Part shown: positions 58,805-63,843 of the stretch, piece after piece
Position numbering within the stretch: position 1 is the stretch's first letter
Layout: each line of letters begins with the position of its first letter
Source: Nocardioides szechwanensis
GTDB lineage: Bacteria > Actinomycetota > Actinomycetes > Propionibacteriales > Nocardioidaceae
Direction of reading: 5' to 3'
DNA length: 64,000 bases
NCBI RefSeq assembly: GCF_900103935.1
Contig: NZ_FNIC01000004.1
Span: 248,001-312,000 of the forward strand
Notes under the pieces: model-generated
Told to the model about the DNA's origin: nothing
Databases searched by the model: none
Seen by the model: only the letters and a program-made list of their open reading frames with translations
Translations under genes and position numbers: made by a program

Positions 58805-60532
58805 GTGGCCTCAGACACTCTCATCGACGCCAACGCCGTCGACTACCTGATCGTCCTGCTCTACTTCGGCGTCGTCCTCGGGATCGGGGTCGTCGCGCGG
58901 CGGCAGGTCTCCGACTCGGTCGACTTCTTCCTGTCGGGCCGGTCCCTGCCGGCGTGGGTCACCGGGCTGGCGTTCATCTCCGCCAACCTCGGCGCCGTCG
59001 AGATCATGGGCATGTCGGCGTCGGGCGCGGAGTTCGGGCTGCCGACGGTGCACTACTTCTGGGTCGGCGCCATCCCGGCGATGCTCTTCCTGGGCATCGT
59101 GATGATGCCGTTCTACTACGGCTCCAAGGTGCGCTCGGTCCCCGAGTTCATGCGCCGCCGCTTCGGCACGGGTGCCCACCTGGTCAACTCGCTGTCCTTC
59201 GCCGTCGCGCAGCTGCTGATCGCCGGCATCAACCTCTACCTTCTCGGCAGCATCATCCATGCGCTGCTGGGCTGGCCGCTGTGGGTGGCGCTCGTGGTGG
59301 CCGCGGCGATCGTGCTGTCCTACATCACGCTGGGCGGCTTGAGTGCCGCGATCTACAACGAGGTGCTGCAGTTCTTCGTGATCGTGGCGGCCCTGCTGCC
59401 GCTGACGCTGATCGGCCTCCACCGGGTCGGTGGCTACGGCGGGCTCAAGGACAAGATCACCGAGGCCGCGTCGGCCGGCGGTGACATCGCGCCGGCCGAG
59501 CAGCAGCTCAACTCCTGGCCGGGCCAGGCGCTGTCCGGCTTCGACTCCCCGCTGTTCTCGGTGATCGGGATCGTGTTCGGGCTCGGTTTCGTCCTGTCCT
59601 TCGGCTACTGGACGACCAACTTCGTCGAGGTCCAGCGGGCGATGGCCTCCGACTCGATCTCCTCGGCCCGCAAGACGCCGATCATCGGCGCCTTCCCCAA
59701 GATGTTCGTCCCCTTCATCACGATCCTCCCCGGCATGATCGCGGCGGTTCTCGTGAGCGAGATCGCCGACGTCAAGGCCGGCGAGACGGTGCCTGGCGGC
59801 GCCTCCGGTGAGGGCGTCGCCTACAACGACGCCCTGCTCTACCTGATGCGCGACACCCTGCCCAACGGCCTGCTGGGGTTGGCGATCGCCGGCCTGCTGG
59901 CGGCGTTCATGGCCGGCATGGCCGCCAACATCTCGGCGTTCAACACCGTGCTCAGCTACGACCTGTGGCAGCAGTACGTCGTCAAGGAGCGCGACGACAG
60001 CTACTACCTGCTGGTGGGGCGTCTGGCCACGGTCGCCGCCACGTTCATCGCGATCTTCACCGCGACCCTGGCCAGCAACTTCTCCAACATCATGGAGTAC
60101 CTCCAGGTCCTGTTCGGCTTCTTCAACGCCCCGCTGTTCGCGACGTTCATCCTCGGCATGTTCTGGAAGCGGATGACACCGACCGCCGGCTGGGTCGGCC
60201 TGGTCTCCGGAACGCTCTCGGCCGTGGCCGTGGCGTTCCTCAGCGAGGACGCCTTCGGCTCCTGGAGCAGTGGCGTCATCCCGATCGGCGGCCAGGGCGC
60301 GGCCTTCCTCGCAGCGGCCGCGGCCTTTGTCGTCGACATCGTCGTCAGCGTCGCGGTCTCGCTGGTCACCAAGCCGAAGCCGGTCTCCGAGCTGCGGGGG
60401 CTCGTCTACTCCGAGACCCCCCGCGAGGACCTGGTCGACGCCGACGAGGCGTCGTACCCCTGGTACCGCCGCACGCTCCCGCTCGCCGGCGTCGCGCTCG
60501 CGATGGTCGTCATCCTGAACTTCGCCTTCTGA
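58805..60532 (+). CDS. Sodium:solute symporter (SSS/SGLT family)
   Basis: A 575-residue symporter with about 14 membrane helices. The first part contains VDYLIVLLYFGVVLGIGVVARR, SVDFFLSGRSLPAWVTGLAFISANLGAVEIMGMSASGAEFGLP (family-typical unwound helix 1 with the sodium site; read in parts) and YGSKVRSVPEFMRRRFG. Later, SFGYWTTNFVEVQRAMAS and AFMAGMAANISAFNTVLSYDLWQQYV match the SSS signature. The substrate (sugar, inositol, proline or similar) cannot be assigned from sequence. The GTG at 58805 lacks a clear Shine-Dalgarno site. The next gene, a small membrane protein, follows ten bases later, so the pair is one unit. Confidence 0.92.
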   Translation: MASDTLIDANAVDYLIVLLYFGVVLGIGVVARRQVSDSVDFFLSGRSLPAWVTGLAFISANLGAVEIMGMSASGAEFGLPTVHYFWVGAIPAMLFLGIVMMPFYYGSKVRSVPEFMRRRFGTGAHLVNSLSFAVAQLLIAGINLYLLGSIIHALLGWPLWVALVVAAAIVLSYITLGGLSAAIYNEVLQFFVIVAALLPLTLIGLHRVGGYGGLKDKITEAASAGGDIAPAEQQLNSWPGQALSGFDSPLFSVIGIVFGLGFVLSFGYWTTNFVEVQRAMASDSISSARKTPIIGAFPKMFVPFITILPGMIAAVLVSEIADVKAGETVPGGASGEGVAYNDALLYLMRDTLPNGLLGLAIAGLLAAFMAGMAANISAFNTVLSYDLWQQYVVKERDDSYYLLVGRLATVAATFIAIFTATLASNFSNIMEYLQVLFGFFNAPLFATFILGMFWKRMTPTAGWVGLVSGTLSAVAVAFLSEDAFGSWSSGVIPIGGQGAAFLAAAAAFVVDIVVSVAVSLVTKPKPVSELRGLVYSETPREDLVDADEASYPWYRRTLPLAGVALAMVVILNFAF

Positions 60533-60542
60533 GGAGAACCCG

Positions 60543-60821
60543 ATGCCCACTCCCCGCACCCGCAAGCCGGTCGTCGCCCCCGAGCGCCGCCACAAGGCCG
60601 GCATCCTCGACATCCGCAACATCATCGGCCTCCTGCTGACGACGTACGGCGTGATCCTCACCCTCACCGGGATCGTCGCCGACCCCCAGCACGACAAGAC
60701 CGGCGGCGTCAACGCCAACCTCTGGGCCGGCCTCGCCCTCCTCGTCGTCGGCCTCGCCTTCGTCGCCTGGGCCAGGCTGCGGCCGGTGCTGGTGCCGGAG
60801 CAGCCAGCCGAGGACGACTAG
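60543..60821 (+). CDS. Small two-helix membrane protein linked to the symporter
   Basis: A 92-residue protein with a basic start (PTPRTRKPVVAPERRHKAG) and two membrane helices (about residues 27-46, IIGLLLTTYGVILTLTGIVA, and 60-79, LWAGLALLVVGLAFVAWARL). GAGGAGA is five bases before the ATG, which is ten bases after the symporter stop. I do not know its function; small partners of SSS transporters can help assembly or stability. Its last four bases overlap the end of the convergent PASTA gene. Confidence 0.85.
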   Translation: MPTPRTRKPVVAPERRHKAGILDIRNIIGLLLTTYGVILTLTGIVADPQHDKTGGVNANLWAGLALLVVGLAFVAWARLRPVLVPEQPAEDD

Positions 60822-62431
60822 GGAGCACCCATCAGCAGATTGACGGCGGTGATCTGGCCGACGTCGTTGTAGCCGATCTGCACTGCCCACGTGTCCAGCA
60901 GCGCCCGGTTCTCGTCCCGGGTTGGCGCCACGGTGACGGCGTTCCTATCGCGGAACTGGGGTGGGGTCTCGGGCTCGAGCAGGCTCAGGAGCTCGTAGGG
61001 GTTGTCGGCCAGCAGCTCGACATCGCCGCCCTCGGCGAGGAGCGGGATGGACGAGAGCGGGCAGGAACGCTCGGCGTATCCGCCAGGAACGCAGAGTTCG
61101 TACGACGAACGGACGCCGGAATCCTCAGCACTGATGGTCTTCACGAACCGGTTGCCGAGGTAGAGGTCGACGGGGGTGTCGACAGGTGGGAGGTCACGCT
61201 CACCGCGGGCGAACTCCACGAACAGGCGGCCGATGCGGTCCCGTTCCCCGGCGGCGGGACCCGGCGGGCCTCCACAGCCGTCGTCCTGGTTCCGGTTCAC
61301 GACGAGGTGCACCCGGTCGCCGTGAGGTGCAGGCTCGCCAGCGGTGGGCTGTTGGCGCAGCACCACCCCGTCCGGCAGGCACCCGGCGCGGTCCTTGTAG
61401 TCCACGGACACGTCGATGCCCAGGTCCAGGAGCACCGCCCGCGCCGCTGCCTCGTCGATTCCGACAACCTTCGGAACCGCCAGCTGCCCAGGGTTGGTGC
61501 TGCGAGGCTTGGGCGCCGCGGAGTAGGCGATGACTGTGTCGATGCGGCCCCCGGTCTCGTACAGGTCGACTGCGGCAGGGCAGTCGTCGCTCGTAATGAG
61601 GGAGAGCTCGATCGACCACGCCTGGCGTCCTGCCGGGGGCGCGGGGACGCGGCCCCAGCGACAGGCGTCGACCGGGTTGCCGACACGGGTCGTCAGGAAG
61701 GGGCCTCGGTAGGCGCCGTACGTCCTGGTGACGAACTCGCCGCGGTCGGATGCGGGTACGACCACCTGACGAGCACGCTCAAGGATCGTGAGGGCCGATG
61801 ACTCGCCCCAGGCCTCCTGGTCGGCCGCCTCGTCGGCGGACAGTGTTGCCGTCAGCGCGCCATCGACGTAAAGCGTCACCTGGTCGGCGAACGTCGGTCC
61901 CGGCCCTCGGGAGCCAGCGAAGTCGAGGAACGCGTAGGACTCCTGCCGGCGCGGCTGAGGGATGCAGTAGGCGCCGCTCATGTCGACGCCACTCGGCACG
62001 AGTGTGACCGGGTCACCCGGTTCGAACCGGGTGCCGATCGGCGGCTCGGTTCGCCAGGCGCGACCTGGAGGCTCGCCGCACTCCTGCGCGATGTCATCCG
62101 GGTAGCGGCTGGGCTGCACCTCGAGGCCGAGGTCGGTGAGCATCGCCTCGGCGTGCTGCACCGAGAGGCCGAAGACCGACGGGATCTGATCGGCCTGGAG
62201 AACTGAGTCTGGCGTCATGGATGGAGATGGTGCCGGGTCGGGGCGGTCGCCGTCGGAGCCTCGTGCGACCACAGCCGCCGCACCGGAAACCAGGACCAGC
62301 ACAGCCGCGGCTGCGGCCAGCGCCTGCCAGCGCGGTCGGCGGCCAGACGTCTCGATCGGTCCGGAGGGTGCGACGTCGATCGTGGTTGCGGCCTCGCGCA
62401 ACAGGGCGCGAGCCTCAGAGTCAGTGAGCAT
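60818..62431 (-). CDS. PASTA-domain membrane protein in the anti-sigma position
   Basis: A 537-residue single-pass protein. The cytosolic N-terminus (residues 1-33, LTDSEARALLREAATTIDVAPSGP) is followed by a membrane helix (about 35-58, ALAAAAAVLVLVSGAAAVVA). The external part has a PASTA domain near 84-150 (PSVFGLSVQHAEAMLTDLGLEV) and another near 315-375 (PKVVGIDEAAARAVLLDLGIDV). PASTA domains bind peptidoglycan or beta-lactams. Its ATG overlaps the ECF sigma gene's end by 11 bases, exactly where an anti-sigma gene usually lies, and the short N-terminal segment could bind the sigma factor. No zinc-binding anti-sigma motif (HxxxCxxC) is present. Confidence 0.83.
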   Translation of the reverse strand: MLTDSEARALLREAATTIDVAPSGPIETSGRRPRWQALAAAAAVLVLVSGAAAVVARGSDGDRPDPAPSPSMTPDSVLQADQIPSVFGLSVQHAEAMLTDLGLEVQPSRYPDDIAQECGEPPGRAWRTEPPIGTRFEPGDPVTLVPSGVDMSGAYCIPQPRRQESYAFLDFAGSRGPGPTFADQVTLYVDGALTATLSADEAADQEAWGESSALTILERARQVVVPASDRGEFVTRTYGAYRGPFLTTRVGNPVDACRWGRVPAPPAGRQAWSIELSLITSDDCPAAVDLYETGGRIDTVIAYSAAPKPRSTNPGQLAVPKVVGIDEAAARAVLLDLGIDVSVDYKDRAGCLPDGVVLRQQPTAGEPAPHGDRVHLVVNRNQDDGCGGPPGPAAGERDRIGRLFVEFARGERDLPPVDTPVDLYLGNRFVKTISAEDSGVRSSYELCVPGGYAERSCPLSSIPLLAEGGDVELLADNPYELLSLLEPETPPQFRDRNAVTVAPTRDENRALLDTWAVQIGYNDVGQITAVNLLMGAP

Positions 62432-62900
62432 CGGGGCTCCTCAGGTTCTGGTCGGCGGCGAGGGCGGCGAGCGCTCGCGAGGTGCGGCTCTTGACCGTCC
62501 CGGGCGGGATCCGCAGCACGTCGGCGGTCTCGCGTTCGGAGAGGTCGGCGTAGTAGCGCAGGACGAGTACCTCGCGGTGCTCGGGGCGCATGGCCGCGAG
62601 CGCGCGGCGTACGCCGAGACCGACGGTCGCGTCGACCTCGCCGTCGGGTCGGTCCGGGAGCGTCTCCGTGGGCAGCTCGCCGTTCCAGCGACGGTTACGG
62701 GCGTCAGTCAGGGTGTTGACCAGGACGCGGTAGACGTAGGCATCGGGCTGGTCGGCGCGCTGGACGCGGCGCCAGGAGCGGTAGCACCGGAGCAGCGCGG
62801 TCTGCACCACGTCCTCCGCGTCGGGCTGCGGACACCCGAGCAGCACGGCGGAGCGCACCAGGCTGGTGCGGCGCGCCACGACGTACTCGCTGAAGTCCAC
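62421..62900 (-). CDS. SigE-family ECF RNA polymerase sigma factor
   Basis: A 159-residue ECF factor. Region 2 (residues about 15-80) has AEDVVQTALLRCYRSWRRVQRADQPDAYVYRVLVNTLTDARNRR (read in parts), and region 4 (about 100-150) has PEHREVLVLRYYADLSERETADVLRIPPGTVKSRTSRALAAL. The GTG start has GGGAG six bases upstream. Downstream, with an 11-base overlap, is a PASTA-domain membrane protein, suggesting that this factor responds to cell-wall state. The SigE family in actinobacteria often pairs with non-zinc anti-sigma proteins, so the arrangement is plausible. Confidence 0.94.
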   Translation of the reverse strand: MDFSEYVVARRTSLVRSAVLLGCPQPDAEDVVQTALLRCYRSWRRVQRADQPDAYVYRVLVNTLTDARNRRWNGELPTETLPDRPDGEVDATVGLGVRRALAAMRPEHREVLVLRYYADLSERETADVLRIPPGTVKSRTSRALAALAADQNLRSPDAH

Positions 62901-62957
62901 GCGTTCTCCCGTCCGGTCACCACTATGACCGGCGGGACGGGTGGATCGGTTCCCGCC

Positions 62958-63738
62958 TCATGCGCAGGCGGCACATCGTTGGGCCTGACCGGGCCAGCCT
63001 TGTCGCTGCAGCACCAGCCCGAGCCGGGCCGCGGTCGAGCATCCGCGCTCGAACACCTGGCCGTAGCCGAGACGGATGGTCTCGGCCCCGCTGACCGCGG
63101 CATCCAGGTCACGCTCCAGGTCGAGGTCGCGGGCGTGGGCGGAGTCGTGGAAGACCCTGCGCGACGTCGTCGAGGATGTTCTCCAGCCAGGTACGGCGGG
63201 GGACCCGAGGCCGTTGGGCGAGGGTGCGCAGCAGCCGCGCCGCCGTGGTGCGCCGCGACCCGCAGGCGTCGGCCAGCGCCGCCACCGCGTCGAGGTCGGA
63301 GGGGGCGTCCGCCGCCACGTCGATGATCGCGTCGTCGTAGCGGACCCTCGGCGGGCCGAGGTTCCACTGCACGCGAGCCTCGAAGTCGCGCATCCGGCGG
63401 ATGCGTACGCCGTCCGCGTCACCGGACAGGTGACGCTGGCGGTCGACCGTCACCTCGATCAGTCGGTCCTCCCCGCTGCGTCGACCGGGCCCCTCCGCTG
63501 CCCGCACCGCCGATCGGTGGGTCAGCGCCGCCGGCCAGGCGAAGAGCACGCCGGCCCACGCGCGCTGCTGCCAGGTGAGCGGCCCGGTGTGTTCGACGTA
63601 GACGCCGGGGTGCACCCGCGCCAGCTCGCGCCGCCGGAGCATCCTCGCGAGGTCTCCCGGGGTCAGCCCGGCCTCGTGCAGCTGTCTTCGACTGACCACG
63701 CCGTCCTGGTCGCGCAGCAGCTGGCTGATCTGGTCCAT
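62958..63738 (-). pseudogene. Decayed AbiEi/DUF559-like gene with internal deletion
   Basis: The N-terminal half (from ATG 63738) carries an AbiEi-type winged helix, MDQISQLLRDQDGVVSRRQLHEAGLT, then RVHPGVYVEHTGP and the following alpha-beta part to RRTWLENILDDVAQG near 63150. There the frame runs on into low-complexity Arg/Pro. In the next frame the natural ending appears: VFHDSAHARDLDLERDLDAAV, LGYGQVFERGCSTAA, LVLQRQGWPGQ and a final CAACA, which is the C-terminus of DUF559/Vsr-like nuclease-fold proteins. The expected central segment (catalytic acids) of about 60 residues is absent, so a deletion of non-triplet length seems to have joined the ends. The protein is probably non-functional. 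CAGGCT six bases before the ATG is a possible -10. Confidence 0.72.
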
Positions 63739-63802
63739 GCGGGAAGCCTGCGTCCCGGGTGACCGCCTGAAACTCCGGGCAGCGGGGCCTGTGGACGAAC
63801 AA

Positions 63803-63843
63803 CGCGGTTGATCTGACACACGGGGTGTGTCAGATCAACCGCG
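63803..63843 (-). terminator. Perfect 19-bp hairpin after the edge gene
   Basis: The arms 63803-63821 and 63825-63843 are exact reverse complements with a three-base loop (GGG). The hairpin lies eight bases beyond the stop codon of the minus-strand gene at the right edge. Confidence 0.7.

Follow-up and report, generated by a model that had tools for sequence, protein, structure and literature searches.

Gene organization of the sigma factor–partner pair

We analyzed a window of 64,000 nucleotides from the soil bacterium Nocardioides szechwanensis (contig NZ_FNIC01000004.1, positions 248,001 to 312,000), focusing on an extracytoplasmic function (ECF) sigma factor gene that overlaps a gene for a single-pass membrane protein with PASTA domains, hereafter referred to as the partner. 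The conserved cytosolic tail of this partner is probably an anti-sigma domain. The features of the pair are listed below in window coordinates (TM, transmembrane; X, a domain without a Pfam match that occurs in two copies).

62927..62953, minus strand: putative ECF autoregulatory promoter, GGAACC-N16-CGGTC, 26 nt before the sigma factor start
62421..62900, minus strand: ECF sigma factor gene of the SigE family (TIGR02983), 159 aa, GTG start; sigma-2 at residues ~5-72, sigma-4 at ~95-149
62421..62431, minus strand: overlap of sigma factor stop and partner start, 11 nt
60818..62431, minus strand: single-pass membrane partner gene, 537 aa, in the order tail-TM-PASTA1-X1-PASTA2-X2
62330..62431, minus strand: cytosolic tail, putatively sigma-binding, residues 1-34; predicted helix 4-15; ortholog-group motif ARxLLxxAAxTIxV
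62264..62329, minus strand: TM segment predicted by hydropathy, residues ~35-56, end approximate
61991..62188, minus strand: PASTA domain 1, residues 82-147
61511..61951, minus strand: X domain copy 1, residues ~161-307, Pfam-negative, tentatively NTF2-like
61295..61477, minus strand: PASTA domain 2, residues 319-379
60821..61258, minus strand: X domain copy 2, residues ~392-537, Pfam-negative, tentatively NTF2-like

As an ECF of the SigE family, the sigma factor is unremarkable: it scores 149.6 bits against TIGR02983 (cut-off 141.55) and matches Sigma70_r2 (PF04542) and Sigma70_r4_2 (PF08281/PF04545) in Pfam. The initial annotation had placed the sigma factor stop 11 bases inside the PASTA gene, and this overlap was confirmed at 62421-62431; the partner ATG is the earliest possible start within its open frame (540 codons), so the overlap does not depend on an arbitrary choice of start. 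The same annotation had described a short zinc-free cytosolic segment and two external PASTA domains, which also held. The only hydrophobic segment of the partner begins at residue ~35, leaving a tail with neither a Cys residue nor the HxxxCxxC motif of zinc-binding class I anti-sigma factors, and Pfam found PASTA alone (PF03793, 58.7 bits versus a cut-off of 23.2), in two stretches. Among 13 aligned partner proteins, whose overall identity to that of the window was 25–36%, L11 was invariant and A7, R8, L10, and A14 were nearly so. Within the partner, it is the tail that is conserved.

Occurrence of short-tailed membrane partners

Relatives were gathered by a scan with the sigma factor alignment, and a direct scan of genome contigs with the partner protein found none. 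The ortholog set comprised 26 sigma factor loci of at least 62% identity, including the window; 24 of them were chosen for having a partner open reading frame (ORF), and the other two (L092 and L096) were broken. An overlapping single-TM gene was present in 24 of 26 loci, so the arrangement is no accident of one locus. L092 and L126 represent the same place in Nocardioides sp. TF02-7, with frame changes in both sigma factor and partner, while a deletion in L096 (genome G212) links sigma factor residue ~123 to the X domain. These loci share one frame only through frame changes or through a deletion into the X domain and were left out of the count of fusions.

The wide set contained 462 loci collected by similarity to this and other SigE-family sigma factors of the same genome, of which 100 were repeats, leaving 362 distinct loci. 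An overlapping or adjacent single-TM ORF was found at 343 of these, and the tail was short (TM start at 18–62) in 334 of the 343 partners (334/362 sigma factor loci). The commonest overlap between the two genes was 4 nt (236/343). The genome of the window itself has 47 matches to TIGR02983, 13 of them over the cut-off, and 17 of its 18 best-scoring sigma factor loci (L039-L056) have a downstream single-TM gene. In an earlier set of 266 loci, a Cys residue occurred in 4 of 226 short tails, and the HxxxCxxC motif in a single one of 241 partner tails, that of the own-genome locus L056. The initial annotation had contrasted the partner with a classical anti-sigma factor; the zinc motif is indeed absent, but its absence is the norm rather than an oddity of this pair. 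A short-tailed single-TM partner is the rule for the SigE-family loci examined, and the window pair is not unusual for its family.

No TM partner was found at 25 of the 266 loci, 19 of which fall within L161-L195. The others were L092/L126 and L096 described above, L048 (stop inside the sigma factor gene), L133 (sigma factor match ending at residue 83), and L315 (contig end). L161-L195 form a distant, mostly Streptomyces sigma factor group, many members of which are without a TM partner gene. The own genome also encodes a kinase and sigma factor cluster, in which a PknB-like kinase ORF with four PASTA domains (L003:314-2979; C10, minus strand) is followed after ~84 nt by a SigE-family-like sigma factor gene (L052; 139 bits, just below the TIGR02983 cut-off) with a single-TM partner.

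Conservation of the promoter

Of the 24 orthologs that have a partner ORF, 21 carry the strict motif GGAACC-N15/16-CGGTC (N16 in 20), located 28–50 nt ahead of the third codon of the aligned sigma factor, that is, roughly 22–44 nt before the start. The remaining three (L088, L090, and L091) carry variant motifs, and both broken orthologs keep the motif, giving 23 of 26 in all. A looser form preceded 4 of 98 other pairs, against a shuffled expectation of 1.3%. Since the promoter is conserved across the ortholog operons, the sigma factor likely regulates its own operon.

Covariation between the partner tail and the sigma factor

The final covariation analysis used 334 of the 343 pairs (effective number, Neff, 235), nine with other tail lengths having been dropped. 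In pseudo-likelihood direct coupling analysis (plmDCA), the top sigma-tail couplings were 7.11, 6.6, 5.5, 5.2, and 4.8 (top-five mean 5.84), compared with 7.08 for the best coupling within the sigma factor. The maximum and top-five mean were 4.07 and 3.11 after one swap of tails between near neighbours, 3.28 and 2.82 after one random re-pairing, and 4.58 and 4.02 for transmembrane control columns under the true pairing. Mean-field direct coupling analysis likewise gave a sigma-tail top-five mean of 5.5 versus a maximum of 2.85 over 30 neighbour-swapped sets.

The top sigma-tail pairs, in window numbering, were R41-column 29, R45-E13, L112-L11, L37-S29, and Y117-A15, followed by R98-A14, L20-A15, V46-P25, A103-E13, and R48-I18. 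Tail helix 1 was thus coupled to both sigma-4 (R98, A103, L112, and Y117) and sigma-2 (L20, R45, and R48), and the second tail segment to sigma region 2.2 (L37 and R41). Because the covariation exceeded that of the near-neighbour re-pairing and of the transmembrane controls, the tail is probably an anti-sigma domain, albeit one without detectable similarity to known ones. Two parts of the initial annotation thereby gained support: the coupling of sigma factor and partner and, as far as covariation can indicate, binding of the sigma factor by the cytosolic segment.

Ectodomain architecture and the candidate stimulus

An AlphaFold model of the partner built from 13 sequences had an overall predicted local distance difference test (pLDDT) score of 71, with residues 18-75 mostly below 50, and X2 modelled alone with AlphaFold2 reached a pLDDT of 83 and a predicted template modelling score (pTM) of 0.82. 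Among the best 50 fold matches listed for X2, most were NTF2-, ketosteroid isomerase (KSI)-, or SnoaL-like, with Z scores of 6.2–7.0, and X in the full partner model gave Z up to 8.0, a range rated as common by the tool itself. The best Foldseek row for X alone was an LDB2 domain (E 0.013), followed by a SnoaL-like protein (E 0.020). Given this best E value and the common Z range, X may tentatively be named an NTF2-like fold, with room for fold families that do not appear in the VIA-align and Foldseek lists.

PASTA domains were detected with our own profile of eight PASTA domains (E ≤ 0.01). The X profile was made from 13 stretches, and since several of these come from the same loci, some X matches arise by construction. 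PASTA was found in 19 and X in 22 of the 24 ortholog partners. L081, L085, and L089 have X without a PASTA match, the first two with the architecture tail-TM-X. In L090 and L091, a window-type tail precedes an ectodomain with neither a PASTA nor an X match, an exchange of the ectodomain. X was also present in all 30 proteins of the search described below for single-gene relatives, the query of which itself carries X. In another group of proteins (L013, L014, L019, L033, L037, and the first ORF of L022), the match to the window partner lies largely in its second half (PASTA2-X2 or X2); some of these proteins have a lipoprotein-like start, and no sigma factor match was found in the stretch fetched.

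The initial annotation had envisaged a direct peptidoglycan-sensing switch. The two PASTA domains are present, a role in sensing peptidoglycan is putative, and peptidoglycan sensing as the defining feature was set aside because X is more constant than PASTA in ortholog partners. The signal could instead be a ligand or protein bound by X, with PASTA domains serving as spacers or wall anchors, an idea compatible with an anti-sigma function of the tail to which we give not quite even odds. The greater constancy of X, the PASTA-less tail-TM-X partners, and the resemblance of X models to NTF2-like pocket folds (Z 6–8) favor it. The partly circular X profile and the tentative fold name speak against it, as does the binding of muropeptides by the PASTA domains of PknB described in passages of PMC13147305.

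Proposed mechanism and alternative interpretations

These data suggest, with a probability of about 0.72, that the pair consists of an ECF sigma factor and a short-tailed type of anti-sigma factor anchored in the membrane. Both genes would be translationally coupled and transcribed from a sigma-type promoter that is probably recognized by the sigma factor itself. The 34-residue tail would embrace the sigma factor, its first helix lying on sigma-4 and also on sigma-2 around R45/R48; most paralogs would have an additional short tail segment that lies on sigma region 2.2 (L37 and R41). From the covariation and the parallel with CnrY discussed below, we infer that the sigma factor is thereby held inactive at the membrane. 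A signal acting on the tandem PASTA-X ectodomain, which is a changeable module, would then free the sigma factor through a shape change or proteolysis. Gene arrangement, covariation, and the conservation of tail and promoter are observations, whereas contact, inhibition, release, and stimulus are inferences.

The combination of a retained tail with a variable ectodomain, most evident in L090 and L091, supports this anti-sigma interpretation. It is also supported by natural single ORFs in related species that join a degenerate sigma factor to the tail and TM segment (L017 and L339), or sigma-2 to the tail (L011). Further support comes from the short-tailed partners at 334 of 362 loci, the tail-sigma covariation, the conserved promoter, and the binding of both sigma-2 and sigma-4 by CnrY and class I anti-sigma domains (PMC7406223 and PMC4598750).

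Several results weigh against it. Tail helix 4-15 has a mean pLDDT of just 65–75, and the remaining tail is mostly below 50. A first covariation run (210 pairs, Neff ~144) gave no clear result, the coupling of transmembrane columns being about as strong as that of the tail. In the final analysis, the plmDCA fit ended at 35 iterations, two of the ten strongest inter-protein couplings (V128-Q36 and D86-A41) fall in transmembrane columns, and the strongest sigma-tail coupling (R41-column 29) lies in a segment missing from the tail of the window's own partner. The mean-field transmembrane control (3.35) was above its own null (≤2.69), indicating that some signal of shared ancestry is left in the covariation. 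A profile of 20 tails searched against PDB sequences retrieved no anti-sigma chain, and the NCBIfam anti-sigma match (16.6 bits, E 0.006) was far under the cut-off of 100. Finally, a regulon search of the own genome with GGAACC-N15-17-CGGTC gave 13 sites versus 20 for the reversed control, which is the level of chance; only the operon's own site looks credible, and no wider regulon emerged.

When an autoregulated operon includes a membrane partner, that partner is usually an inhibitor. This norm, with nothing more specific, argues against an alternative in which the sigma factor, once bound, depends on the partner for activity, the partner being a co-activator or a dual activator-inhibitor that recruits the sigma factor to the membrane and then releases it as an active factor. 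Covariation suggests a contact and not its sign, and dual function has been reported for the anti-sigma factor of the RskA-SigK system (PMC7509140); we consider this alternative unlikely.

Still less probable is a co-expressed envelope protein that makes no contact with the sigma factor, the gene overlap setting expression and the sigma factor being controlled by transcription or by another protein. Transcription-controlled ECFs exist according to passages of PMC8999054, 19 of the 362 distinct loci are without a TM partner ORF (some broken or at contig ends), and the transmembrane control columns were also above null; against these stand the excess of tail-sigma covariation over nulls and TM columns, the conservation of the tail while the ectodomain is exchanged, and the fusion of sigma factor parts with exactly this protein in single ORFs. 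A separate zinc anti-sigma factor nearby was ruled out within the one family searched, zf-HC2, which has three matches in the genome, each beside another sigma factor match and none within 89 kb of the pair on the contig (nearest ~89 kb).

ECFs of this family can pass for orphans, since their neighbouring genes show no recognizable anti-sigma domain. Should the short tails be such domains, a cognate membrane sensor with an exchangeable ectodomain could be assigned to hundreds of sigma factors, and direct test points would be R45/E13, L112/L11, L37/S29, and Y117/A15.

Single-gene relatives with sigma-2 remnants

Two genes on the opposite strand converge on the pair.

58805..60821, plus strand: SSF sodium/solute symporter (58805-60532) and small membrane protein (60543-60821)

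On the other side, an AbiEi_4 antitoxin-like gene (63109-63819) adjoins the sigma factor gene, and its orientation differs between species.

At many loci of other Nocardioides species, the genes for this symporter and small membrane protein adjoin a single ORF that opens with the beginning of a sigma factor and continues into a TM segment and a PASTA-X ectodomain. A search with one such remnant protein (L028) gave matches in 51 of 215 congeneric genomes. In 38 of these, the match began at query residue 1 or 2; two more (G118 and G196) encode a longer degenerate sigma factor fused to the tail motif, as in the fusions L017/L338 and L339, and the remaining genomes matched in the ectodomain alone. 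Approximately 40 of the 215 Nocardioides genomes thus match a one-gene derivative. Of 30 loci fetched, 27 begin with the remnant, and all 27, drawn from the 38-genome group, matched the sigma factor profile within the first 75 residues (E < 0.001; values for a search of 30 sequences, the weakest being 0.0001–0.0009).

The loci can be arranged in a series from separate genes, as in the window, through a whole degenerate sigma factor with tail and TM segment (L017 and L339) and sigma-2 with the tail but with sigma-4 mostly missing (L011, from a draft assembly in 360 contigs, and, judged by eye, L016, L018, and L020), to sigma-2 with a TM segment and no tail (L021, L024, L028, L030, and others). 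On this comparison of gene structures, the pair seems to have fused in related species and then decayed into a membrane protein with a dead piece of sigma factor.

The remnants have mostly lost the conserved residues of region 2.2, and the half of sigma-2 past residue ~62 is gone. The numbers of remnants (n = 26) and intact sigma factors (n = 241) keeping a residue were 0 and 208 for E29, 2 and 237 for D30, 2 and 240 for Q33, 0 and 224 for W43, 0 and 239 for Y55, 3 and 203 for R58, and 0 and 211 for N62. E29, D30, and Q33 belong to the region 2.2 patch that binds core polymerase. Other positions, namely A28, I46 (V in most sigma factors), R48, P52, D53, V56, and L60, are kept in 23–26 of the 26 remnants. 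No GGAAC-N13-19-GTC site was found within ~100 nt of the remnant gene start at the 27 judgeable loci (in L338, L339, and L341, the point of measurement lies inside the ORF); more distant sites occur ~110 nt (L332) and ~210 nt (L333) from the start.

Across 93 non-independent pairs with overall identity above 0.5, the sigma-2 part was more conserved than the ectodomain, with a mean identity of 0.71 versus 0.58 and a median ratio of nonsynonymous to synonymous changes (pN/pS) of 0.47 versus 0.70, and so it hardly resembles a passive relic. In three genomes, an intact pair is followed on the same strand by a remnant gene, directly in G144 and G009 and within ~0.6 kb in G209. The sigma factor may, although we consider this doubtful, have been turned into part of a membrane receptor. 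It might then serve as a tethered mimic of a sigma factor and bind the tails of anti-sigma factors (an anti-anti-sigma factor at the membrane, with the PhyR idea realized in one receptor), or it might pass a signal to some partner. Such sigma-2 receptors, if real, would clearly exemplify the reuse of a transcription factor domain in membrane signalling.

Comparison with known systems

In class I and zinc anti-sigma factors (RseA, RsiW, RskA, and RsrA), the inhibitor is likewise encoded beside its ECF gene. The class I domain, however, comprises ~101 residues in four helices and often carries HxxxCxxC, as described in passages of PMC7406223, whereas the window tail has 34 residues, one predicted helix, and no Cys, and falls outside this class. 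PASTA Ser/Thr kinases such as PknB and PrkC share the PASTA ectodomain, and PknS-EcfK, in the passages of PMC13147305, is a transmembrane kinase working with an ECF; the window partner differs from both in having no kinase domain. IutY of Pseudomonas putida is a single-chain sigma/anti-sigma factor, similar to the fusions in related species, but is activated by proteolysis (PMC8999054), whereas the Nocardioides fusions carry a degenerate or partial sigma factor. A single-TM protein of Streptomyces venezuelae, encoded next to RS00060 and co-transcribed with an ECF, has been proposed as an anti-sigma factor of unknown family (PMC11256431); it has 102 aa, and the passages concerned name no sensor domain and show no interaction.

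We also surveyed titles and abstract starts of the open-licence literature on ECFs with PASTA domains, on this family in Nocardioides, and on sigma-derived or sigma-mimicking membrane proteins, in which neither this pair nor sigma-2 receptors were described; a prior description of the pair is possible, since the search was limited to open-licence papers.

The closest likeness is to CnrH-CnrY of Cupriavidus metallidurans (class II), in which a membrane-bound anti-sigma factor likewise has a short cytoplasmic domain. According to passages of PMC4598750 and PMC7406223, two helices of CnrY hold sigma-2 and sigma-4, and in CnrY as in class I domains the first helix lies on sigma-4 and the last on sigma-2. 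The covariation in the window family likewise points to both sigma domains, although one helix is predicted in the window tail. The size guide taken from the passages of PMC7406223, a domain of fewer than 50 residues before one TM segment, agrees with a TM segment from residue ~35. CnrY differs in relying on a separate sensor, CnrX (PMC4598750), whereas the window partner has its ectodomain in the same protein; furthermore, no sequence match between CnrY and window-type tails was found in the PDB profile search, and the window sigma factor belongs to the SigE family (TIGR02983). The partner may therefore function in the manner of class II (CnrY-type) anti-sigma factors while carrying its own sensor, its membership in this class being putative. 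The pair belongs to a large group that is poorly described, of which the branch of candidate sigma-2 receptors is the surprising part.

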